Source: a virus
Reading direction: 5' to 3' (one strand)
IMG/VR virus record: IMGVR_UViG_3300032322_002298
Span: 1-40,061 of that record
DNA length: 40,061 nucleotides
Shown: positions 21,892 through 33,919 of the stretch, one piece after another
Position numbering within the stretch: the stretch's first letter is position 1
How the letters are laid out: every line of letters starts with the position of its first letter
Notes under the pieces: generated by a model
What the model was told of the DNA's origin: nothing
Databases searched by the model: none
What the model saw: only the letters and a program-made list of their open reading frames with translations
Translations under genes and position numbers: made by a program

Positions 21892-22566
21892 TCAGATGAT
21901 CTTCTTGACGTTCCGGGTCTGCGCGTCGTCGACGGCGGACTTCCCGACCGGCGTTTGGATTGTGTCGAGGACCTTCGAGTTCGTCGCGATCGCTTCGCGG
22001 ACCGCGGGCGAGATCGTCGCGAGGGCGTCGATCGACGCGACGATCCGGTCGATCGCGACGGTCTTCGTCGAGACCTCCTGTTCGAGGACTGACTTCGCGC
22101 GGGCGAGTCGCGAGGCGCGATAGGCGATCCCGGCGAGGACCGGGGCGAGGGTCGCGGCTCCCGGGAAGATCATCCCGACGAGACCTCCGATCTCGGCTCC
22201 GTGGTTTGGCGCGGCGAGGATCTCGTCCGTCCGGGCGAGGACGTCTCCGAGTTCGGTCGACCGGGCGCGGGCGTCGTCGATCGCGGCGCGGAGGTCGGCG
22301 ATCCGGGCGGTCGTCTCGCGGATCGTCACGTCGACGGCGGCGCGGTCGGGACTGGTCGGGTCGAGACGATCGGCGAGGGCGGCGAGACGGTTCTTCTCGG
22401 AGACGAGGTCGGCGACGGCTTCGTCCGTCCGGCGGACTGTGGAGTCGAGGACCTCCTTCTCGCGGGCGACCTCTCGTCGACGGGCGTCGATCGACTCGGT
22501 CGTCTCGCAACCGGCGAGGGACACGGCGAGGAGGAGGGCGGCGAGGAACGGAAGGAAGGGTCTCAC
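21892..22566 (-). CDS. Lipoprotein with long coiled coil; candidate outer-membrane spanin
   Basis: The start is GTG at 22566-22564, preceded by GGAG with suitable spacing; the open frame upstream lacks an appropriate signal. The 224-residue product opens with a lipoprotein signal peptide RPFLPFLAALLLAVSLAGC (lipobox LAGC, Cys20). It then has charged heptads over residues 25-110 (RRREVAREKEVLDSTVRRTDEAVADLVSEKNRLAALADRL...), a hydrophobic Gly/Ala patch at about 128-155 (GLVGMIFPGAATLAPVLAGIAYRAS) and another helix. After export the Cys would be acylated. With the adjacent membrane protein it could form an envelope-spanning lysis pair. The gene starts downstream of the terminator at 22664-22689. 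Confidence 0.85.
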   Translation of the reverse strand: MRPFLPFLAALLLAVSLAGCETTESIDARRREVAREKEVLDSTVRRTDEAVADLVSEKNRLAALADRLDPTSPDRAAVDVTIRETTARIADLRAAIDDARARSTELGDVLARTDEILAAPNHGAEIGGLVGMIFPGAATLAPVLAGIAYRASRLARAKSVLEQEVSTKTVAIDRIVASIDALATISPAVREAIATNSKVLDTIQTPVGKSAVDDAQTRNVKKII

Positions 22567-22650
22567 GGCGGCGGCTCCGGGTCGAGGTCGAGGATCCCCT
22601 CCCGGGGACCGTCGTCCTCCGGGAGGGGCGAAGAGGGAGTACGCAGCAGG

Positions 22651-22689
22651 GTAGGAAACAAGAGACCCCGGGGAGAGGTCCCCGGGGTC
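22651..22689 (-). terminator. Intrinsic terminator for leftward transcription
   Basis: GACCCCGGGG (22664-22673) and CCCCGGGGTC (22680-22689) form a perfect 10-bp stem with a 6-base loop. On the minus strand it is followed by TCTTGTTTCC, moderately U-rich. It lies 27 bp downstream of the stop of gene 22716-23105 and before the lipoprotein gene, so it separates early leftward genes from the candidate lysis pair. Confidence 0.75.
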
Positions 22690-22715
22690 GCGGCGGTCGT
22701 CGTCGTCTCGACCGA

Positions 22716-23105
22716 TCATCCGACGCAGAACCGAACTCCGTCGACGATCATCGTCTTCGGGCGGTGGCTGTAGTATGCGTCGGGATTGAAGACGTCGTGA
22801 AACCCGGCGCGACAGAGGTCGGCGTCGATCCGGCGACCCTTCGAGTTCGGAGATCCCGACGTCGTCCGGAACTCGTCGCGGCTCAGAGTGTCGCAGATCT
22901 CGGAGGCGGCTTCCTTCTCCGCGGCGAGGGTCTCGACGGTCGGGACGTCGACGACGCGGATCATCGACTGGAGGAGGGTCGTCCATTCCTCGGCGGACTC
23001 GCGATCGTCGGCGTCGATGCACAGGTCGACTTGGTCGAGGACGTCGTCGATCCGTTCGGCGAGGAGGGCGATCGTGTCGGAGTGGAGGCGGGTCGCGGTC
23101 TTCAT
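22716..23105 (-). CDS. Unknown early protein (129 aa)
   Basis: I do not recognise a family. The soluble 129-residue product has a helical N-terminal half (TATRLHSDTIALLAERIDDVLDQVDLCIDADDRESAEEWTTLLQSMIRVV) and a C-terminal half rich in Arg, Asp and aromatic residues (RIDADLCRAGFHDVFNPDAYYSHRPKTMIVDGVRFCVG). The leader carries CTCTCTCGAAGGAAGGAACGAACG before ATG, the same sequence style as the rightward early genes. Expressed from the divergent region, then ended by the terminator at 22664-22689. Confidence 0.75.
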   Translation of the reverse strand: MKTATRLHSDTIALLAERIDDVLDQVDLCIDADDRESAEEWTTLLQSMIRVVDVPTVETLAAEKEAASEICDTLSRDEFRTTSGSPNSKGRRIDADLCRAGFHDVFNPDAYYSHRPKTMIVDGVRFCVG

Positions 23106-23162
23106 CGTTCGTTCCTTCCTTCGAGAGAGGCGGAGGGGACGACGTTCGTCCCCGGGGAAGAC

Positions 23163-23188
23163 GACCGGGGAGATCTCTCTCCCCGGTC
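23163..23188 (-). promoter_or_regulatory. GNRA-capped intergenic hairpin (leftward mRNA)
   Basis: Read leftward, GACCGGGGAGA-GAGA-TCTCCCCGGTC gives an 11-bp perfect stem with a GAGA (GNRA) tetraloop, starting 17 bases after the stop of gene 23206-23679. No U-tract follows. It matches in position and loop type the hairpins on the rightward early transcripts. Confidence 0.65.
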
Positions 23189-23205
23189 GCGGAGTTCGGT
23201 TCGGA

Positions 23206-23679
23206 TCAGTCCATCACGTTTGCGTCGGCGAGATCGGCGATCTTCGCACGGATCGACCGAATCATCGCGTTGTCGGCGTACAGGGTGAACGAGACGTCGA
23301 GGGTCTCGACGGTGACGATCTGAGTGCTGCGACCGTACACCGAGATGATGAAGTCGATCGACCCGACCTCTTCGATGAAGTCGCGGAGGGTCATCTTCTT
23401 CGACCGGCGACCCTGATCGAACTTCGCGAGACCGAAGAGGTCGAGACCGTATCCGACTTGGTAACCGGTCGAGATCTCGCAACCGGCGTCGATCGCGGCG
23501 TTCGCGGAGGCGAGGTTCGTCAGACCGGTCGTCGTCTCGGCGATCGTCCTCGGTCCCTCCCCACCGTACCGGTTCTTCTCGAAGGCGGCGATGCAGGTCT
23601 CGACGCCATACTTCTGGAGGGCGCGAAGGCAGCGGGGAGAGAGGAGGTTCGAGTCGAGGGTCTTAGCGGCGAGGTTCAT
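23206..23679 (-). CDS. Unknown early protein, paralogue of 24285-24797 (157 aa)
   Basis: Family not recognised. The N-terminus LSPRCLRALQKYGVETCIAAFEKNR aligns with LSPKTRRAVKKFGVATCVAAWKTFD of the rightward gene at 24285, sharing LSP, RA, KxGVxTCxAA. A middle part rich in Gly/Ala/Thr (GPRTIAETTTGLTNLASANAAIDAGCEISTGYQVGYGLDLFG) and a C-terminal alpha/beta region (SIDFIISVYGRSTQIVTVETLDVSFTLYADNAMIRSIRAKIADLADANVMD) follow. It is the first gene on the leftward early transcript, with GAAGGAGACCTCCG before the ATG. The divergence of paralogues from one promoter region suggests a duplicated early host-takeover gene; function is unknown. Confidence 0.78.
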   Translation of the reverse strand: MNLAAKTLDSNLLSPRCLRALQKYGVETCIAAFEKNRYGGEGPRTIAETTTGLTNLASANAAIDAGCEISTGYQVGYGLDLFGLAKFDQGRRSKKMTLRDFIEEVGSIDFIISVYGRSTQIVTVETLDVSFTLYADNAMIRSIRAKIADLADANVMD

Positions 23680-23711
23680 CGGAGGTCTCCTTCGTTCGTG
23701 GTTCTCGTCGG

Positions 23712-23764
23712 CGAGACGTTCTCGCTGACGGGACTATCATCGGCGATCGGCGTCGACTTGTCCA
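23712..23764 (-). promoter_or_regulatory. Leftward early promoter with operator-like palindrome
   Basis: On the minus strand TGGACA (23764-23759) is followed after 17 bp by GATGAT (23741-23736), then AGTCCCGTCAGCGAGAACGTCTCG. The last part includes GCGAGA-N3-TCTCGC (23711-23725), a 6-bp-arm inverted repeat just downstream of the expected start site. The block from CCGAAGGACTGGACA to the inverted repeat is closely matched by the rightward promoter at 23852-23905. Confidence 0.75.
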
Positions 23765-23851
23765 GTCCTTCGGAGACGAATCCGCAAAAAAGATCGACCC
23801 CCCCCCTCCGTTCGGGATTCATTCTTTGCGTGCGGAATCGTTCCGAAGGAC

Positions 23852-23905
23852 TGGACAGGAGGGGGGCGTCTCGCCGACAATAGTCCCGGCGGCGAGAACG
23901 TCTCG
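23852..23905 (+). promoter_or_regulatory. Rightward early promoter with operator-like palindrome
   Basis: TGGACA (23852-23857), an 18-bp spacer and GACAAT (23876-23881) are followed by AGTCCCGGCGGCGAGAACGTCTCG. CGAGA-ACG-TCTCG (23893-23905) repeats the inverted repeat of the leftward promoter. Both promoters also share CCGAAGGAC immediately before the -35. The 23765-23851 stretch between the two -35 boxes is non-coding. Confidence 0.75.
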
Positions 23906-23938
23906 ACCGCGGGACCGAACGACGAAGGAGAACGACCG

Positions 23939-24181
23939 ATGAAGACGATGATCCGATACGAGGCAGTCACGAAGGGCGCGGCGACCGTGGAGGCGACCGG
24001 TCTCCTGACTTGTCGTCGGGCGGCTATCCGGATCGCTCGCAGCATGGCGGCGAGGGTCGGCGGCGCGGTCGTCGTTCGTCACAATCTCGCGATTCGCGAT
24101 CTCTCGGCGAGGATCGCGGATCAGCGGATCGTCCGGCGGTTCGAGTCCGAGGTCGTCGAGTTCCTCTCCGATGCGGCCTGA
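23939..24181 (+). CDS. Unknown small early protein (80 aa)
   Basis: First gene of the rightward early transcript, with GAAGGAGAACGACCG before ATG 23939. The 80-residue basic product (MKTMIRYEAVTKGAATVEATGLLTCRRAAIRIARSMAARVGGAVVVRHNLAIRDLSARIADQRIVRRFESEVVEFLSDAA) combines a beta-like start, an Arg/Ala-rich helix and a charged C-terminus. I see no family match, zinc motif or membrane segment. A role in early host takeover or regulation would be a guess from position alone. Confidence 0.72.
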   Translation: MKTMIRYEAVTKGAATVEATGLLTCRRAAIRIARSMAARVGGAVVVRHNLAIRDLSARIADQRIVRRFESEVVEFLSDAA

Positions 24182-24200
24182 ACGGTCTCCTCCTCGACCG

Positions 24201-24276
24201 CGACCCGGGAACGGGTCGAGAGTCGATTCCCCGCGGGGCGTCCCGCGGATCTCCCCTCCCCTCTCTCTCGAAGGAG
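24201..24276 (+). promoter_or_regulatory. Intergenic cassette: GNRA hairpin, second hairpin, CTCTCTCGAAGGAG ribosome binding site
   Basis: CGACCCG-GGAA-CGGGTCG (24201-24218) is a 7-bp stem with a GGAA GNRA tetraloop, 20 bases after the previous stop. CCGCGGG-GCGT-CCCGCGG (24231-24248) is a second 7-bp stem. A pyrimidine run ending CTCTCTCGAAGGAG (24263-24276) serves the next ATG. No U-tract follows either stem, so they are not standard terminators. Confidence 0.65.
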
Positions 24277-24284
24277 TTCGACCG

Positions 24285-24797
24285 ATGAAGCACCTCTCCC
24301 CGAAGACCCGTCGCGCCGTGAAGAAGTTCGGAGTCGCGACTTGCGTCGCGGCGTGGAAGACGTTCGACGAGTCCGTCCTCGCCCCCCGATGGAAGGAGGT
24401 CCTCGGACGCGAACTCGGGATCTCCCCTCGCTCGGTCGAGTCGGCGATCGTCGCGGGTCGCGAGGTCGAGACCCTGATCCAGACCGTCGACGACGTCGAG
24501 TCGATTCACGGTCGGCGACTTCTCTCGGGACACGGGGACGGATGGGGAACCCTCGGCGACTGGTTGACCGGCGGGGCGGGGCATATTCGCGTGAAGTCCG
24601 TTCGCTGGTCTCCCGATGGAGACGAGAACGTCGGCGACGTCACGATCCGCGGCTCGATGGGGGGATTCACCCTCTTCAGGACGTTCGACTTCCGCGCGAC
24701 CCGAGAGCAGTTCGACGAGGTCGTCGAACTCGCGAAGAGGTTCGGATACCTCGCGACTCCCGGCGGCGTCGACTCGACCGCGACCGCGGGCGTCTGA
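24285..24797 (+). CDS. Unknown early protein, paralogue of 23206-23679 (170 aa)
   Basis: Start chosen at ATG 24285 after CGAAGGAGTTCGACCG; an upstream in-frame ATG lies within the previous stop region. The N-terminus MKHLSPKTRRAVKKFGVATCVAAWKTFD matches the leftward gene product (see that entry). The protein continues with RELGISPRSVESAIVAGREVETLIQTVDD, a Gly/His-rich segment, and SVRWSPDGDENVGDVTIRGSMGGFTLFRTFDFRATREQFDEVVELAKRFGY. The ISPRSVESAI portion looks helical but I cannot assign it confidently as HTH. Function unknown. Confidence 0.78.
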   Translation: MKHLSPKTRRAVKKFGVATCVAAWKTFDESVLAPRWKEVLGRELGISPRSVESAIVAGREVETLIQTVDDVESIHGRRLLSGHGDGWGTLGDWLTGGAGHIRVKSVRWSPDGDENVGDVTIRGSMGGFTLFRTFDFRATREQFDEVVELAKRFGYLATPGGVDSTATAGV

Positions 24798-24814
24798 TCG
24801 GTTCTCCTCGACCG

Positions 24815-24890
24815 CGACCCGGGAACGGGTCGGAGGTCGATTCGATCGCGGGAACGTCTCTCGCGGTCTTCTCCCCCCTCTCTCGAAGGA
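24815..24890 (+). promoter_or_regulatory. Intergenic cassette, second copy: GNRA hairpin and CTCTCTCGAAGGAG
   Basis: CGACCCG-GGAA-CGGGTCG at 24815-24832 is identical to the first copy and lies 18 bases after a stop. A weaker GCGGGAACGTCTCTCGC stem region follows, then CCCTCTCTCGAAGGAG before the GTG start. Sequence identity with the 24201 copy spreads over most of the 80-bp interval. Confidence 0.65.
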
Positions 24891-24897
24891 GCGTAAC

Positions 24898-25317
24898 GTG
24901 GACGACAAAAAGAAGAAGAGACTCGCGAAGATGCTCGAAGAGAACGCGAACGACGCGGAGATGTTCCGTCTCGACACGATGCGGCGCGGGTCGCTCAAGT
25001 TCGAGTTCGAGACGATCATCAACGCGAAGACGGACGACCTGCTTCGTCCGGAGATGGCGGCGTTCCTCCGGGCGAGGGGCGAGGGGTACTCGTCGATGGC
25101 GTCGAAGATCCTCGCGACTGGAGGCGACCGCGGACTCGCGAAGAGGTTCCTCGCTCTCTCGTTCTTGAATGGACTTCTCGCGGAGACGGTCACGGAGGCG
25201 GACCTCTCGTTCCTCGCCCGATTCGGATTCGACCTCGACCGTTCGGTCGAACTGACCGAGAACCTCCTCCGATACTGGAAGATCCTCCCCGTCGAGACGA
25301 AGGAGGTCGGGCAATGA
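24898..25317 (+). CDS. Unknown early protein (139 aa)
   Basis: Starts at GTG 24898 after CGAAGGAGCGTAAC. The 139-residue product has a Lys/Glu-rich helical start (DDKKKKRLAKMLEENANDAEMFRLDTMRRGSLKFEFETIINAKTDDLL) and is helical throughout (FLARFGFDLDRSVELTENLLRYWKILPVETKE). No catalytic or metal-binding motif stands out. Its stop overlaps the ATG of the next gene by 4 bp (ATGA), so the two are coupled. I do not recognise the family. Confidence 0.75.
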   Translation: MDDKKKKRLAKMLEENANDAEMFRLDTMRRGSLKFEFETIINAKTDDLLRPEMAAFLRARGEGYSSMASKILATGGDRGLAKRFLALSFLNGLLAETVTEADLSFLARFGFDLDRSVELTENLLRYWKILPVETKEVGQ

Positions 25318-25775
25318 ACGAGGAGCGTATCGAACAGATCGTCGAGTCCCGCGGGACTCGGTCCTTCGTGACGGTCCTCGGAGGAGTCGGAGAGGCGATC
25401 GTCCTCTTCCGTCGTCGAGGAACGGATCCGGTGATCTCGACCGGGACTCGGTTCGACCTCGTCGACGTCCGGTCCCTCGCGACGACGCACACGGTCCTCG
25501 GATTCGCTCCCGAGGATCGGACGAACGAGGAGATCCTCGCGACCCTCGACGAGGAACGATGGTCTCCGGATGGCGAAGGATTCGACCTCGTTCGGATGGT
25601 CGGCGCGGCGTACGTCTCGATGGGTCCCGGAGACCTCGTCGTCCGGGAGGATCCCGATCTTCCCGGTCGATGGCTCGTCTTCGGGGTCCTCGGGGACCGG
25701 TCGTTCGCGTGTCTCGGTTCCCTCCGGAGAGGGGAATATCCGGTCCTCGGACCGGTCGGACGAAAGAATGCGTGA
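25314..25775 (+). CDS. Unknown protein with C-terminal SxGD module; paralogue of 25885-26364 (153 aa)
   Basis: The 153-residue protein shares with the next gene the order VDVRSLATTHTVLGF, TNEEILATL, WSPDGEG, AYVSMGPGDLVVRE, RWLVFGVLGDRSFACLGSL. The C-terminal part (S-M-x-x-GD-L/V-V then a short beta hairpin with F-G-x-x-x-L) recalls the small SVGD module attached to many phage and plasmid proteins of unknown function. Expressed by coupling with the preceding gene. No enzyme motif seen. Confidence 0.78.
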   Translation: MNEERIEQIVESRGTRSFVTVLGGVGEAIVLFRRRGTDPVISTGTRFDLVDVRSLATTHTVLGFAPEDRTNEEILATLDEERWSPDGEGFDLVRMVGAAYVSMGPGDLVVREDPDLPGRWLVFGVLGDRSFACLGSLRRGEYPVLGPVGRKNA

Positions 25776-25794
25776 CGGATTCCCGATATACCTC

Positions 25795-25843
25795 TGGACG
25801 GGAGTCCCGGAGGCGTGTATGCTTTCCCCGGGGACTATCCCCG
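25795..25843 (+). promoter_or_regulatory. Early promoter with GGGGACTATCCCC operator-like repeat
   Basis: TGGACG (25795-25800), a 17-bp spacer and TATGCT (25818-25823) form a good sigma70-type promoter. CGGGGA-CTA-TCCCCG (25829-25843) is a perfect 6-bp-arm inverted repeat around the expected start site. A similar arrangement precedes 26513. Confidence 0.72.
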
Positions 25844-25884
25844 ACCGCGACCGGCGGACTCCGGAACGAAGGAAGGAACGAACG

Positions 25885-26364
25885 ATGCTCAAGGTTGCGA
25901 ACAAGTTGGTCTTCACGTCAAACGACTCCGAGAACGCGCTCCGCGCGGCGGTCGGGTGGGGAAATGCGATCGTCCTATACGTCCGGGGATATTCCGACCG
26001 GGTCCGATTCGGATTCGTCGAGGGCATCGACTCCGACCTTCGCGATATTGCGGGCGCGGACTTCTCGAAGGTCGACCTCCGAGACCTCGCGAAGACCCAC
26101 GTCATTCTTGGGAACGGCGTCTCCGAGGACTTCTCGAACGAGGATCTTTTCTCCCGGCTTCAGGGCGAGAACTGGTCCCCGAACGGAGAGGCGAATCCGA
26201 TGATCGGGCGTCTCGGTCTCTGGCATACCTCGATGAGCGTGGGGGACCTCGTCCTCCGTCCTGATCCTGAGGACTCGACGCGATACCTCGTCTTCGGCGT
26301 CGATTCGATCGGCTTCCGACGTCTCGGGTCGATCCGTCCGGGATTCGGACACTATCCCCTCTGA
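25885..26364 (+). CDS. Unknown protein with C-terminal SVGD module; paralogue of 25314-25775 (159 aa)
   Basis: Start at ATG 25885 after GGAAGGAACGAACG; the longer frame would run through the promoter. The 159-residue product aligns with the preceding gene (VDLRDLAKTHVILG, SNEDLFSRL, NWSPNGEA, HTSMSVGDLVLRPDP, RYLVFGVDSIGFRRLGSI). HTSMSVGDLV...YLVFGVDSIGFRRL is a closer match to the mobile-element SVGD module than its paralogue. It has its own promoter, so the duplicates can be expressed separately. Function unknown. Confidence 0.8.
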   Translation: MLKVANKLVFTSNDSENALRAAVGWGNAIVLYVRGYSDRVRFGFVEGIDSDLRDIAGADFSKVDLRDLAKTHVILGNGVSEDFSNEDLFSRLQGENWSPNGEANPMIGRLGLWHTSMSVGDLVLRPDPEDSTRYLVFGVDSIGFRRLGSIRPGFGHYPL

Positions 26365-26374
26365 ACCCGACCGG

Positions 26375-26392
26375 GACCCGGGGAACCGGGTC
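26375..26392 (+). promoter_or_regulatory. GNRA-capped intergenic hairpin
   Basis: GACCCGG-GGAA-CCGGGTC forms a 7-bp stem with a GGAA tetraloop, beginning 10 bases after the stop of the preceding gene and just before the next promoter. The base pairs differ from the 24201 and 24815 copies while pairing and loop class are kept, which supports a structured RNA. Confidence 0.65.
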
Positions 26393-26414
26393 TCGGGATT
26401 TATGTCCGAGGGAC

Positions 26415-26467
26415 TCGACAAGAGTCCCGGAGACGAGTACGATGTTCGAGGTCGGGACTATCCCGAC
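26415..26467 (+). promoter_or_regulatory. Early promoter with GTCGGGACTATCCCGAC operator-like repeat
   Basis: TCGACA (26415-26420), a 17-bp spacer and TACGAT (26438-26443) form the promoter. GTCGGGA-CTA-TCCCGAC (26451-26467) is a perfect 7-bp-arm inverted repeat. The spacer AGAGTCCCGGAGACGAG is nearly the same as that of the 25795 promoter (GGAGTCCCGGAGGCGTG), so the two promoter regions are homologous. Confidence 0.72.
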
Positions 26468-26512
26468 GCCGACCCGGCGGATCCGGGAGTCTCGAAGAAG
26501 AAGGAACGAACG

Positions 26513-27670
26513 ATGAACGGAACGAACAACAACGGCTTCTCTCTCCTCGGCACGAACGACGCGATCGCGAACTCGGCAGGGCGCGACCTGATCTCCGTCG
26601 AGGAGACGATCGTCCGGACCGCGGACGCGGTCGAGTTCGGCGGGGCGCGGACGATTCGCGAGGCGACGACCCGTCACGCGATCACGACGAAGGACGCGAT
26701 CGGTCTCCGCGGGACCGCGGCGTGGCACGGTCTCGGGACGGTGATCGACGAGGGTCTCTCGGGCGTCGACGCGATCCGGCGGTTCCTGCCGTGGTCCGTG
26801 GAACGCGCTCCGGCGTACGTCACGATCGACGGCGTCGCGACCCCTCTTCCCCTTTGGGCGAACGTCCGGTCGGACACTCGCGAGATCCTCGGCGTCGTCG
26901 GACCGGACTACAAGGTCGTTCAGAACCACGACCTTGGGCAGTTCGCGGACGCGCTCGTCGGCGCGGACGCGACCGTGACGATGGAGACGGTCGGCTCCCT
27001 CCTCGGCGGTCGCAAGGTCTTCCTCCTCGTTCGCGTCCCGAAGGAGGTTCGGGTCGGGAGGACCGGCGAGGACCTCACTCTCCCGTACCTCCTCCTCGCG
27101 AACGGACACGACGGATCCATGGCGATGACCGTCCTTTGGACGATGGAGCGCGTCGTGTGCCGGAATACCTACGTCCGCGCTCTCGGACCCGCGACCTCGA
27201 CCGCGGCGGAGGGAACGGCGTTCCGGATCCGGCACAATCAGGACGTCGCGTCCGGTCTCGCGGAGGCGAGGAAAGTCCTCGCGATCGCGGCGAAGGGTCT
27301 CACCCAGTATGAGGAACAGGCGCGTCTCCTCGCGGCGACCTCGCGGACCGCGGACGCGCTCGACGAATACTTCGAGACGGTCTTCGCGGCGCAGTTCGGG
27401 GCGCGTCCCGAGGACACCCTCGACGCGGCGTCGTGGGAGATCCGTCGCGACCGGGTCGTCGGCGAGTGGCGGTCGCTCCTCGACGCGGAGACGAACCGGA
27501 TCGACGGGATCGGCGGGACCCTCTGGGCGGCTCTGAACGCGGTGACGGAGTGGACGGACTTCTCGCGGTCTCCCGGCGTGAAGGGCGATCGTCGCGATCA
27601 CCTCAAGACCCTCGGCTCCGGGGCGGTCGCGAAGCGGGTCGCGATGCGGGTCGCGCTGGCGTCCGTCTGA
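26513..27670 (+). CDS. DUF932 (phage/plasmid-like TIGR03299) protein
   Basis: Start at ATG 26513 (GAAGAAGGAACGAACG upstream); an earlier ATG at 26402 lies inside the promoter and is rejected. The 385-residue product matches the DUF932 family of phages and plasmids: GTAAWHGLGTVIDEGLSGVDAIRRFLPWSVERAPAYV, RSDTREILGVVGPDYKVVQNHD, LLGGRKVFLLVRVPKE, YLLLANGHDGSMAMTVLWTMERVVCRNTY, FRIRHNQDV and a helical C-terminus. The family is widespread in mobile elements with no settled function. It is a highly expressed-looking early gene with its own promoter. Confidence 0.92.
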   Translation: MNGTNNNGFSLLGTNDAIANSAGRDLISVEETIVRTADAVEFGGARTIREATTRHAITTKDAIGLRGTAAWHGLGTVIDEGLSGVDAIRRFLPWSVERAPAYVTIDGVATPLPLWANVRSDTREILGVVGPDYKVVQNHDLGQFADALVGADATVTMETVGSLLGGRKVFLLVRVPKEVRVGRTGEDLTLPYLLLANGHDGSMAMTVLWTMERVVCRNTYVRALGPATSTAAEGTAFRIRHNQDVASGLAEARKVLAIAAKGLTQYEEQARLLAATSRTADALDEYFETVFAAQFGARPEDTLDAASWEIRRDRVVGEWRSLLDAETNRIDGIGGTLWAALNAVTEWTDFSRSPGVKGDRRDHLKTLGSGAVAKRVAMRVALASV

Positions 27671-27690
27671 TCGTCGTTCCTTCACGGTCG

Positions 27691-27764
27691 CGACCCGGAG
27701 ACGGGTCGTCGACCGTTTTCCGCGGGAACGTCTCGCGGCTCTCTGGTCTCTCTCTCGAAGGAGT
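27691..27764 (+). promoter_or_regulatory. Intergenic cassette, third full copy: GNRA hairpin, CGCGGGAACGTCTCGCG stem, CTCTCTCGAAGGAG
   Basis: CGACCCG-GAGA-CGGGTCG (27691-27708) keeps the stem of the 24201 copy but changes the loop from GGAA to GAGA, still GNRA. CCGCGGGAACGTCTCGCGG (27720-27738) can fold as a second stem. CTCTCTCGAAGGAG (27751-27764) then leads to the GTG start at 27771. Confidence 0.65.
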
Positions 27765-27770
27765 GTCCCC

Positions 27771-28097
27771 GTGACTTGCAACCCGTTCTCAGTTCGCGAC
27801 GTCGACCTCGTCCCCGTGAAGATGGAGTTCGGCGGCGTCGGCTATCGCGTCGAGGTCTATCCCGGCGTCGAGGGGGAACAACTCTGTCGAGAGTCGACCG
27901 TCGCGGCGATCCGTTCTCTCGTCGAGATTCGCGAGTGGGTCGAGATCTACCTCGACTCGAAGGAGGGCGACTCGGCGCGGGCGTTCGCGATGGAGAACCT
28001 CCGTCGCGTCCTTGGTCCTCACCCTAAGCCCGAGACCCTCGAACGGTCGGACGAGGATCCCGAGAAGTTCGACGAGGCGACCGGTCCCTTCGGATGA
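27771..28097 (+). CDS. Unknown early protein (108 aa)
   Basis: Starts at GTG 27771 after CTCTCTCGAAGGAGTGTCCCC. The acidic 108-residue product (TCNPFSVRDVDLVPVKMEFGGVGYRVEVYPGVEGEQLCRESTVAAIRSLVEIREWVEIYLDSKEGDSARAFAMENLRRVLG...) shows a beta N-terminal part and a helical C-terminal part. No family recognised and no catalytic motif. Its stop is directly followed by an A-tract and the GC hairpin at 28103-28124. Confidence 0.72.
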   Translation: MTCNPFSVRDVDLVPVKMEFGGVGYRVEVYPGVEGEQLCRESTVAAIRSLVEIREWVEIYLDSKEGDSARAFAMENLRRVLGPHPKPETLERSDEDPEKFDEATGPFG

Positions 28098-28124
28098 AAA
28101 AACCCCGGGGACGGATCCCCGGGG
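28097..28124 (-). terminator. GC hairpin with T6 on the minus strand (terminator-like for leftward transcription)
   Basis: CCCCGGGG (28103-28110) and CCCCGGGG (28117-28124) pair as an 8-bp stem around ACGGAT, with A6 at 28097-28102. Read leftward this is a stem followed by TTTTTT, a textbook terminator. Read rightward it lacks a U-tract, although it lies just after a rightward stop codon. It may block antisense transcription or act weakly in both directions. Confidence 0.55.
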
Positions 28125-28138
28125 CGTCGAAGGAGGAG

Positions 28139-28152
28139 GTCGGGATCCCGAC
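28139..28152. promoter_or_regulatory. 14-bp perfect palindrome before the HTH gene, putative operator
   Basis: GTCGGGATCCCGAC is a perfect palindrome 18 bp upstream of the HTH gene start. Its arms GTCGGGA/TCCCGAC are identical to those of the inverted repeat at the 26415 promoter, which has an additional CTA spacer. Binding by the adjacent HTH protein is a natural guess but not shown. Confidence 0.5.
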
Positions 28153-28169
28153 CGCAAGGAGCATAGCAC

Positions 28170-28400
28170 ATGGCGAAGAAGAAGCAAAGTAAGGCGGGAA
28201 GTATCAGGGAGGCGATCCGTGTCGAGGTCGCGAACCGGAACCTCTCGGGGTATCGACTCGTCAAGATGCTGGACGGGCAAGTATCCCGGACGGCGATCTA
28301 TCGGTTCCTCGCGGGCGACGGCGCGTCGACGGACGTCGCGACCGCGGAGAAGTTCCTCGAAGTCCTCGACCTCCGGGTCGTCTCGAACAGGTCGAACTAA
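28170..28400 (+). CDS. Small HTH DNA-binding protein (Cro/C1-like)
   Basis: The 76-residue basic protein has a lysine-rich start and a helix-turn-helix region: SIREAIRVEVANRNLSGYRLVKMLDGQVSRTAIYRFLAGDGASTDVATAEKFLEVLDLRVV. NLSGYRLVKML-x-VSRTAIYRFLAG fits helices 2-3 of the lambda repressor-like fold, and the end TAEKFLEVLDL is typical of the family. SD AAGGAG lies upstream of ATG 28170. It probably represses early promoters or its own gene via the palindrome at 28139-28152; that link is inferred. No larger CI-type repressor is present. Confidence 0.85.
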   Translation: MAKKKQSKAGSIREAIRVEVANRNLSGYRLVKMLDGQVSRTAIYRFLAGDGASTDVATAEKFLEVLDLRVVSNRSN

Positions 28401-28409
28401 GGAGGCGCG

Positions 28410-30179
28410 ATGTCGAAGGTGCAAGTATCTCGGAACGGGACGAAGATCGTCGTCTCTTCCCCTTCGTCCTATCGGGACGTCGTCGCGGCGGTCCCGACCC
28501 GCGAGTGGGATCCTCGTCGCGGCGTCTGGACGTTCGCGGCGACCCCGTTCGTCGCGTCGTCCCTCCTCCGGCGACTTCGTCGCAAGGCGGAGGAGACGGC
28601 GGACGAGGTCGAGGTCTCGGAGAACGTGCGGATGATCGCGGCACGACCGCACGACGTTCGGAAGGGGATCGCGGCGTTCGGCGCGGCGGTCGGAGACGGA
28701 CCGATTCCCGTCGTTCCGGGAAGTCGATTCTCCCCGTGGCGGCATCAGTACATCGGGGCACGTCTCGTCTCCGAGTTCGACTCGGCGTTCTTGGCGTGGG
28801 AGATGGGAACCGGAAAGACGAAGGGCGTGATCGACGGGATCCTCCTCCTCCACGGCACGGGTGCGAAGTCCGTCCTGATCGTCTGTCCGTCCTCGGTCGT
28901 CGACGTTTGGAATCGGGAGATCCCGAAGCACGTCGTCGACCCGGACTCTCGGTTCGTCGTCGCGGCGTCGACGGCGAAGTCCGTGGCGAAGAGGGCGACT
29001 GAGGCGCGGGCGGCGGTCGACCTCGCGGAGGCGACCGGGCGGACCGCGGTCGTCGTGACGAACTACGAATCGTTCGTCCTCGACTCCTCCCCGTTCCTCC
29101 TCTTCGCGGCGTCTCGGGCGTGGGATCTTCTTGTCCTCGATGAGTCTCACAGGATCGCGTCCCCGGGAACGAAGACGTCGCGGGCGATGACGTCGAAGAT
29201 CGGTCCCCTCTCGCGACGTCGCGTCTGTCTCTCGGGAACTCCGATGCGGAACTCCCCCCTCGACCTCTACTCTCAGTGTCGGTTCCTTGACGCGGGGATC
29301 TTCGGGTCGAACGGGCGGCAGTTCCTCGAACGGTTCGCGACCCTCGACTTCTTCGGGAATGTCGTCGGCTTGCAAAACACCGAGGAACTCGCGGAGCGGT
29401 TTGCGTCCGTCGCGATGCGCGTCGACAAGCGGGCGGTCCTCGACCTCCCTCCGGTGACGATTCAGACACGGCGGTGCGATCTCGGACCCGAAGGACGCGC
29501 GCTCTATGAGGCGGTCGAGGGCGAACTCGCGACCGAACTCTTCGACGGCGGGAAGGTGGTCGCGGCGAACTCGCTCGTCCGTCTCCTCCGGCTACAACAG
29601 ATCACTTCGGGATACGTCTCGGCGGAGACCGAGTCCGGTGCGACGGTCGATCGCGAGGTCGACGGCGCGAAGATCGCGGAACTCTCCGAGATCATCGATG
29701 AGATCCGGGACGACGAACCCGTCGTCGTCTTCTGTCGGTTCCGTCGAGACCTCCGGGCGGTCGAACGTCTCGCGACCGAGAAGGGGCGCGGCTACCGGGA
29801 ACTCTCCGGGGACCGGAACGAACTCCGCGCGTGGCAGGACGCGCGGGGCGGCGAGGTTCTCGGCGTTCAAATCAAGGCGGGCGGCGTGGGCGTCGACGGG
29901 ACGCGGGCGGCGTACGTCGTCTTCTTCTCGGTCGGCTTCTCGCTCGCCGACTATGAGCAGGCGTTGGCGCGGGTCGATCGTCCCGGGCAGACTCGACCCG
30001 TCACGGCGATCAACCTCGTCGTCCGCGGAACGGTTGACGAGGCGGTCTTCGGCGCGATCGAATCAAAGAAGGACGTGGTCGAGGGCGTCCTCGACTTCCT
30101 CCGGGGACGGCGTGGGGCGTCGACCGGCGGGTCCTCAACTCTCCCCGCGGAACCGAAGGAGGTTCGCAATGAAGTTTGA
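28410..30179 (+). CDS. SNF2-family (SF2) DNA helicase/translocase
   Basis: This 589-residue ATP-dependent DNA translocase starts 9 bp after the HTH stop. The N-terminal 60 residues (NGTKIVVSSPSSYRDVVAAVPTREWDPRRGVWTFAATP) resemble the HARP-type domain found before phage and SMARCAL1-like SNF2 cores. Motif I is WEMGTGKTKG (about 130-139), motif II LDESH (243-247), motif III LSGTPMRN (274-281). The second RecA lobe has DEPVVVFCRFR, VLGVQIKAGGVGVDG and motif VI QALARVDRPGQTRPV. It would remodel replication forks or assist recombination during phage DNA synthesis. Its 3' end overlaps the next gene by 11 bp. Confidence 0.95.
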   Translation: MSKVQVSRNGTKIVVSSPSSYRDVVAAVPTREWDPRRGVWTFAATPFVASSLLRRLRRKAEETADEVEVSENVRMIAARPHDVRKGIAAFGAAVGDGPIPVVPGSRFSPWRHQYIGARLVSEFDSAFLAWEMGTGKTKGVIDGILLLHGTGAKSVLIVCPSSVVDVWNREIPKHVVDPDSRFVVAASTAKSVAKRATEARAAVDLAEATGRTAVVVTNYESFVLDSSPFLLFAASRAWDLLVLDESHRIASPGTKTSRAMTSKIGPLSRRRVCLSGTPMRNSPLDLYSQCRFLDAGIFGSNGRQFLERFATLDFFGNVVGLQNTEELAERFASVAMRVDKRAVLDLPPVTIQTRRCDLGPEGRALYEAVEGELATELFDGGKVVAANSLVRLLRLQQITSGYVSAETESGATVDREVDGAKIAELSEIIDEIRDDEPVVVFCRFRRDLRAVERLATEKGRGYRELSGDRNELRAWQDARGGEVLGVQIKAGGVGVDGTRAAYVVFFSVGFSLADYEQALARVDRPGQTRPVTAINLVVRGTVDEAVFGAIESKKDVVEGVLDFLRGRRGASTGGSSTLPAEPKEVRNEV

Positions 30180-33640: not shown

Positions 33641-33643
33641 CTT

Positions 33644-33895
33644 GGGAACGGCACCCCCACAATGGGAACGGGTGGGAACGGGTGAACCGTTCCCGGATAA
33701 ACCTCACGGCGACAACGGTTTGGAGTGGGTGGGAACGGCGGAACGGTCGCGCGCCCGCGTGCGCGTGCGCGCCGACGAGACAACCGTTCCCCTGTTCCCA
33801 TGCTGGTCTAAGTGTTTGCGGCATCACGCGATAGCGCGGGAACGGCTCTCCGAAAAGTGCCGTTCCCAACCGTTCCCGCCGTTCCCATGGAACGG
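33644..33895. other. Iteron-like putative replication origin
   Basis: The octamer GGGAACGG or its complement occurs exactly ten times: plus at 33644, 33664, 33674, 33731, 33838; minus (CCGTTCCC) at 33687, 33784, 33860, 33870, 33879. Three more copies have one mismatch (33739, 33792, 33888). The 279-bp gap between primase and helicase genes has no plausible gene. An alternating GCGCGCCCGCGTGCGCGTGCGCGCC-like tract (about 33749-33772) and a less GC-rich stretch (33802-33830) lie between repeat clusters. Repeats of this type next to a primase are a normal sign of an origin. Confidence 0.75.
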
Positions 33896-33919
33896 ACACC
33901 GAACGAGGAGGGTAGGTTC

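Follow-up and report, generated by a model that had tools for sequence, protein, structure and literature searches.

GNRA-loop hairpins behind stop codons in an uncultured high-GC phage lineage: a possible role in setting messenger RNA 3' ends

In phage T7, RNase III sites form hairpins between successive early genes, with longer and imperfect duplexes, and Ingham et al. (1995) reportedly described terminators without poly-U tails in the early region of actinophage phiC31. Here we describe five hairpins with GNRA tetraloops that stand just behind stop codons in one virus record, IMGVR_UViG_3300032322_002298 of IMG/VR, which was analysed over its full length of 40,061 bases (the window; GC 66%). 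The closest bacterial cases come from Escherichia coli operons, where 26 of 34 upstream-stabilised gene pairs end right behind a stable hairpin without a U-tract (PMC5927463), and where the galE hairpin, with an 8-bp stem and a 4-nt loop, stops an exonuclease and fixes an intra-operon 3' end (PMC11925234). In Streptomyces clavuligerus (72.5% GC), 353 of 535 structured transcript ends have no U-rich tract, the U-rich class of this high-GC genome being defined by at least 3 U in 8 bases (PMC8269248). In Cluster K mycobacteriophages, an inverted repeat lies directly upstream of about half of the start-associated sequence (SAS) sites (PMC3203893).

We favour, with moderate confidence, the reading that the GNRA hairpins set the mRNA 3' ends of the genes they follow, as leaky terminators, as exonuclease blocks, or as both. 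The lineage offers a clean example of RNA structure rather than sequence being conserved at gene ends, where the constant element is the loop class. It also allows gene-end hairpins to be told apart from the start-associated repeats that adjoin them in the same gaps, and it suggests loop class and stop-codon distance as a marker to test for mRNA 3' ends in phages for which no RNA data exist.

The five hairpins and their conservation

A preliminary description of this DNA had placed five hairpins behind stop codons. All five are present, with extents and distances amended:

24194..24226, plus strand: gene-end hairpin A (core 24201-24218, loop GGAA, fold z-score -3.8), its core 19 nt past the stop of gene 23939-24181
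24808..24840, plus strand: gene-end hairpin B (core 24815-24832, loop GGAA, z-score -3.2), its core 17 nt past the stop of gene 24285-24797
27684..27716, plus strand: gene-end hairpin C (core 27691-27708, loop GAGA, z-score -5.0), its core 20 nt past the stop of the DUF932 gene 26513-27670
26371..26396, plus strand: gene-end hairpin D (loop GGAA, 11 bp including one G-U, z-score -3.0), 6 nt past the stop of gene 25885-26364 (10 nt for its 7-bp core), with the tail GATTTATG
23161..23190, minus strand: gene-end hairpin E (loop GAGA, 12-13 bp, with 12 bp all Watson-Crick at 23162-23189, z-score -4.5), 16 nt past the stop of gene 23206-23679 (minus strand)

A, B, and C share an architecture of a 7-bp apical stem on a lower stem. 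Over all 11 hairpins of the window and its relatives, helices are 11-15 bp long, fold z-scores run from -2.9 to -6.1, and a bulge or mismatch interrupts the stem 7-10 bp below the loop in 8 of the 11. The hairpins stand 6-24 nt past the stop on the transcribed strand, and 36-138 nt separate them from the next called start. The loops had been described correctly, as GGAA (A, B, and D) or GAGA (C and E). Stems had been given as 7-11 bp; E has 12 Watson-Crick pairs rather than 11, and D reaches 11 bp with its one G-U. Distances of 10-21 bases hold for A, B, C, E, and the 7-bp core of D but not for the extended D. The genes in front may be called early by their position and by promoter-like sites only.

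Open reading frames in frame with the genes at 24285 and 24898 extend upstream through hairpins A and B, and a coding reading of these two gaps was considered and rejected. Per codon, the gap stretches score -0.35 and -0.31 for coding, whereas the genes score +0.21 and +0.32. AAGGAG precedes the start of each gene, and we therefore take the gaps as non-coding.

The hairpin region is represented by three genomes with genes called by an in-house script: the window and two IMG/VR records that match it genome-wide, G001 (41,046 bases, terminase 76% identical) and G003 (31,616 bases, 75%). An extra scan with a neighbouring gene returned the same two records only. A post-stop hairpin was counted if it had a GNRA loop, at least 7 bp, at most one G-U, and a distance of at most 35 nt from the stop. 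Such hairpins occupy 5 of 22 post-stop gaps in the window, where 500 dinucleotide shuffles average 0.04 and never exceed 1; 4 of 23 in G001 (shuffle mean 0.01), where one further gap hairpin carries two G-U; and 1 of 16 in G003 (shuffle mean 0.00). Over both strands of the window there are eight: five post-stop in the sense orientation, two intragenic, and one elsewhere. Perfect GNRA hairpins of at least 7 bp number four on the plus strand and one on the minus strand window-wide, where 30 first-order Markov sequences give a mean of 0.33 per strand. No hairpin of the reverse-complement loop class TYNC stands in the post-stop gaps of the three genomes, and those of the window hold none with a UNCG loop. 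The hairpins are genuine and not a product of chance. GNRA loops account for 10 of 15 post-stop tetraloop hairpins within the group and for 17 of 51 in loci outside it (2 of 19 where GC exceeds 0.58). In other phage loci, 9 of 18 ordinary terminator hairpins with a tetraloop and a T-tail have this loop class, which by itself is thus not novel.

The relatives keep the hairpins and replace their letters. In G001, GNRA hairpins follow the gene preceding DUF932 (D), DUF932 itself (C), and the leftward gene (E), and two additional ones stand behind the head protein gene and behind the gene after that. The E gene of G001 has no match to that of the window; the two are equated by place, as the leftward genes of their divergent promoter regions. 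G003 has its hairpin at the C junction only, and the gene in front is not DUF932. Out of 14 apical stem bases, those differing from the window number 10 at D, 12 at C in G001, 12 at C in G003, and 9 at E, and all loops are GNRA (over the 11 hairpins, four GGAA, three GAGA, three GAAA, and one GCAA). Each stem position shows at least two pair types, mostly three or four, as counted ungapped by script; MAFFT had inserted gaps into ten 18-base cores. Pairwise alignment of the D gap sequences did not bring the hairpins into register. G-U pairs occur in D, in G1C and G1E (the G001 hairpins at C and E), and in others.

Within the window, A, B, and C are related copies over about 88 nt (B and C have 82% and 73% identity to A), so they are not independent cases. 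Stem bases had been said to vary with pairing kept, which is true of D, of E, and of the lower stem of A, B, and C, where both bases differ in three of six pairs; the seven inner pairs of these three are identical. Over the whole helix 97% of cells are paired, slid controls show no compensatory changes, and the compensatory value is reached in 19 of 500 shuffles. With only three sequences, these compensatory changes alone are modest evidence. Apart from A, B, and C themselves, a covariance model derived from the three finds only E clear of everything else (E-value 5e-7), although the stem letters of E are quite different; E is best read as a fourth, diverged cassette copy. In the relatives, for which the preliminary description had proposed such a search, the D homologue of G001 ranks ninth of 42 (E 0.05), below hits such as L077:549-638 (E 0.0045), which lies within a called gene and is probably chance. 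Only the gene-end hairpin, not the full cassette, is thus shown in the relatives. The sense-strand GNRA loops without TYNC, the stem replacement in relatives, and the compensatory changes in A, B, and C support the earlier view that RNA structure is selected: pairing and loop class are kept while stem letters change.

Searches beyond the lineage returned little. The window has the gene content of a tailed phage (terminase, protease, head protein, tape measure, J-like tail protein), and its structural genes led to 78 loci, of which 74 were scanned after four repeats of G001 and G003 were dropped. GNRA hairpins occupy 6 of their 347 post-stop gaps, three of them being one repeated element, and are thus not a general trait of the structural operon. 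None of these loci carries homologues of the genes adjoining the window hairpins; two carry a homologue of 21892-22173. Exact hairpin letters matched 19 IMG/VR contigs, and the 18 of sufficient length to scan showed no post-stop GNRA hairpin, the matches not being individually inspected. Rfam gave nine matches in window 22000-29000, none reaching the gathering score, and near and distant DNA searches of the region against named phages gave no match. Host assignment was attempted from best matches and none was reached: those of the terminase are gut phages and phages of Streptococcus and other Bacillota, those of DUF932 are phages of actinobacteria, and the helicase, compared with genomes, returned a 37% match in a Gemmatimonadetes bin and a second match of 23%. 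By title and abstract opening, no publication on GNRA gene-end hairpins in phages was found, with subscription literature mostly outside coverage.

Three side observations concern hairpins or genes of the same kind. A phage locus of 46% GC (L057) has three 11-bp GNRA hairpins 13-19 nt past stops; they lack T-tails and are a comparable gene-end feature of a different phage. A 90-kb record (L006) has a DUF932 protein 57% identical to that of the window, and no GNRA hairpin of at least 7 bp in the surrounding 21 kb. At the contig end of G003 (L078:14001-14441) lies a non-coding array whose four units, each about 100-114 bp long, are joined by G-rich repeats of GGCNN type. Every unit has a 6-bp GNRA hairpin, with the loop GCAA in three units and GAGA in one, and in addition a GAGA hairpin of 8-10 bp, CGACCTCC-GAGA-GGAGGTCG.

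Leader hairpins and start repeats

In the gaps of A, B, C, and E, the GNRA hairpin is followed by a second hairpin and then by CTCTCTCGAAGGA(G) with a Shine-Dalgarno sequence. A second stem and a shared sequence had been noted in three of them; CTCTCTCGAAGGAG is indeed exact after A, B, and C, and E had been missed, with its second stem and 13 of 14 bases. The second, or leader, hairpins and the start repeats are as follows:

24231..24248, plus strand: leader hairpin of A, loop GCGT
24844..24868, plus strand: leader hairpin of B, GAACGTC at the loop
27720..27738, plus strand: leader hairpin of C, ACG triloop
23135..23153, minus strand: leader hairpin of E, ACG triloop
23711..23725, minus strand: leader hairpin GCGAGA-ACG-TCTCGC upstream of gene 23206-23679, between promoter-like site and start
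23893..23905, plus strand: leader hairpin CGAGA-ACG-TCTCG upstream of gene 23939-24181
24263..24276, plus strand: start repeat CTCTCTCGAAGGAG of A, containing the Shine-Dalgarno sequence
24878..24891, plus strand: start repeat CTCTCTCGAAGGAG of B
27750..27763, plus strand: start repeat CTCTCTCGAAGGAG of C
23117..23129, minus strand: start repeat CTCTCTCGAAGGA of E, 13 of 14 bases

A strict descriptor of the ACG-loop leader matches 4 of 21 leaders, where shuffles give a mean of 0.2 and at most 2. Two of the four follow hairpins C and E, and the other two belong to the genes that open the divergent units. The A and B leaders are relaxed forms of the same hairpin. The letters alone mean little, since the heptamer GAACGTC occurs at 79 places on the two strands of the genome. 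The first genes of the divergent units have a leader hairpin without a preceding gene-end hairpin, and D has a gene-end hairpin without such a leader, with a promoter-like site instead; the two elements are therefore separable. The GNRA hairpin goes with the upstream stop, and the second hairpin and CTCTCTCGAAGGA go with the start of the next gene. Within this genome, the gaps of A, B, C, and E support the proposed repeated early-gene cassette. As a side observation, the neighbouring genes 25314-25775 and 25885-26364 are paralogous, at 40% identity across 137 aa; the region has therefore undergone gene duplication.

What the hairpins may do

Three promoter-like sites were found in 22500-28500, where 0.1 are expected: a divergent pair at 23736-23764 (minus) and 23852-23881 (plus), and the third listed here with an ordinary terminator-like hairpin of the region:

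26415..26443, plus strand: promoter-like site TCGACA-17-TACGAT, between hairpin D and the DUF932 gene
22664..22689, minus strand: terminator-like hairpin of 11 bp with the non-GNRA loop CCTC and the tail TCTTGTTTCC, closing the leftward gene pair

Under the 3'-end-setting reading, RNA polymerase would pause at the GNRA hairpin and partly terminate, the hairpin acting as a U-poor, leaky intrinsic terminator. What remains, an 11-15 bp GC-rich helix capped by a very stable tetraloop, would block 3'-to-5' exonucleases. At A, B, C, and E, the read-through transcript would enter the leader hairpin and a strong Shine-Dalgarno sequence, so that each gene would be a cassette flanked by a 5' hairpin and a 3' hairpin, and transcript levels may fall from one gene to the next. 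At D, the promoter-like site would restart transcription. Leaky termination seems somewhat likelier as the origin of the 3' ends than cleavage plus trimming, and the role of the hairpin would be identical in both.

The bases behind the stem favour this reading. The preliminary description saw no U-tract, and there is no run of five T; the first four bases after the 11 GNRA stems are, however, enriched in T: 19 of 44, compared with a T fraction of 0.188 after 64 in-gene hairpins (resampling P 0.0003); the next four bases have 8 of 44. Most of the hairpins have a short step of 2-3 T. The step is below a terminator U-tract, yet above nothing. By the definition in PMC8269248, several of the phage hairpins would count as U-rich, and this mark, with a step that is weaker than a U-tract but present, suggests 3'-end setting. 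Like U-poor or U-lacking ends, the hairpins are stable, come soon past the stop, and have no long U-tract; like canonical Rho-independent terminators, they have a GC-rich stem near the gene end, but of the five in the window only D is listed as having 5 or more T in the 8 bases right after it.

Several points weigh against this reading. The terminator scan lists only D among the five window hairpins, and the whole region holds 5 terminator-like sites versus 3.5 +/- 2.0 in shuffles. The scan finds no promoter-like site between hairpin and next gene at A, B, C, or E, so transcription must cross those hairpins at least partly, and efficient termination would silence the next gene. By automatic stem ends E and G1E have no T-step, and the T-step test has fewer than 11 independent cases because A and B are near-identical. 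Absence from relatives had been named as grounds for giving up the structures; hairpins are present at D, C, and E of G001 and at C of G003, and none is found in the 20 post-stop gaps of G004, a more distant relative (helicase 38% identical).

A processing and stability cassette without termination, cut in its U-containing linker so that both message ends are protected, is a serious but distinctly less probable account. The hairpin pairs of A, B, C, and E stand a few nucleotides apart with TT or TTT in the linker, the lone leader hairpins behind the promoter-like sites of the two first genes make 5' and 3' modules separable, and intra-operon hairpins protecting 5' and 3' ends are reported in PMC5927463. 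Yet G001 has a gene-end hairpin at E where the leader hairpin was not seen, no cleavage-site consensus is shown, and a T-step right after the stem is equally expected of a weak terminator.

It is rather unlikely that the gaps control translation of the next gene in the manner of SAS and extended start-associated sequences (ESAS), for example through a post-stop segment that pairs with the Shine-Dalgarno sequence until the upstream ribosome arrives. Four copies of CTCTCTCGAAGGA do stand at ribosome-binding sites, and predicted pairing of the Shine-Dalgarno sequence with the first 25 post-stop nt is 0.96 in C, 0.52 in A, and 0.30 in B; the same pairing is absent in D (0.06) and E (0.01), D and G001 have the hairpin without the start repeat, and spacing is tight from stop to hairpin but 36-138 nt from hairpin to start.

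We give still less weight to a binding site for a phage or host RNA-binding protein, of the boxB-like antitermination or RNase III type. A constant loop class and the stem interruption in 8 of 11 hairpins would suit it, but loop letters vary and stem letters are freely replaced. Helices of 11-15 bp are short for RNase III. A boxA upstream of the hairpin, as in lambda-type nut/boxB sites, was not found: the best boxA-like octamer in the 40 nt upstream has 6 of 8 consensus bases (C), with 4-5 elsewhere. About as improbable is a phage-wide gene-end tag, in which one dedicated RNA-binding protein would read loop class and interrupted stem and act in trans at all tagged junctions; if true, it could be a multi-site antitermination or mRNA-protection system rather than separate passive hairpins. 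Least plausible of all is a DNA-level operator or inverted repeat with the RNA hairpin as a by-product: there is dyad symmetry, and Cluster O and EG phages have 17-18 bp inverted repeats, many intergenic, but those repeats keep their arm sequence (PMC4351075, PMC7302621), whereas here arms differ while pairing and loop class stay, GNRA lies on the transcribed strand with no TYNC, and G-U pairs occur.

Other features of the region are recorded as side observations. In the divergent promoter region (23707-23900), a perfect 16-bp inverted repeat (TGTCCAGTCCTTCGGA, arms 67 nt apart) lies within a 30-bp, 87% inverted repeat, so the two promoters look like mirror copies. The palindrome TAGTCCCGNCATCGGGACTA stands upstream of two G001 genes (L077:6773-6792, minus strand, and L077:7162-7181), and GGACTAT/ATAGTCC recurs near window positions 23731, 23880, 25831, and 26454; these may be a shared operator. 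A CCCCGGGG hairpin with an A-tract in front (window 28102-28125) is terminator-like on the minus strand and has a counterpart at the same place in G001; G003 also has the hairpin. Finally, a non-coding, repeat-rich stretch precedes the UvrD-like helicase gene in the window (33641-33919, GGGAACGG repeats) and in G001 (L077:17370-17676, TGGAAGCGC repeats), and is a candidate replication origin.

Comparison with described systems

The hairpins resemble gene-end hairpins known from phages and bacteria. The phiC31 terminators are reportedly likewise early-region stem-loops of a high-GC phage without a long U-tract. Compared with the RNase III sites of T7, the helices here are only 11-15 bp long.

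At the start side, SAS and ESAS of Cluster K mycobacteriophages and Cluster EF Microbacterium phages also place a repeat at the ribosome-binding sites of non-structural genes, as CTCTCTCGAAGGA is conserved here in four copies (PMC3203893, PMC7302621). The 13-bp SAS consensus GGGATAGGAGCCC (PMC3203893) is not the phage repeat CTCTCTCGAAGGAG. In ESAS, the inverted-repeat arms follow a conserved consensus of 17 bp and the spacer is mostly 4-13 bp (PMC3203893, PMC7302621), an arrangement not found here, where the hairpins have variable arms and always a 4-nt GNRA loop; the start repeats are not, by sequence, members of SAS or ESAS.

The intra-operon hairpins of E. coli are, like those of the phage, stable, placed at the end of an internal cistron, and free of a U-tract, and galE too has a 4-nt loop. 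Many of the E. coli hairpins lie within the next gene, and loop class is no theme in the available text of the two reports; the phage hairpins stand 6-24 nt past the stop and carry a GNRA loop (PMC5927463, PMC11925234).

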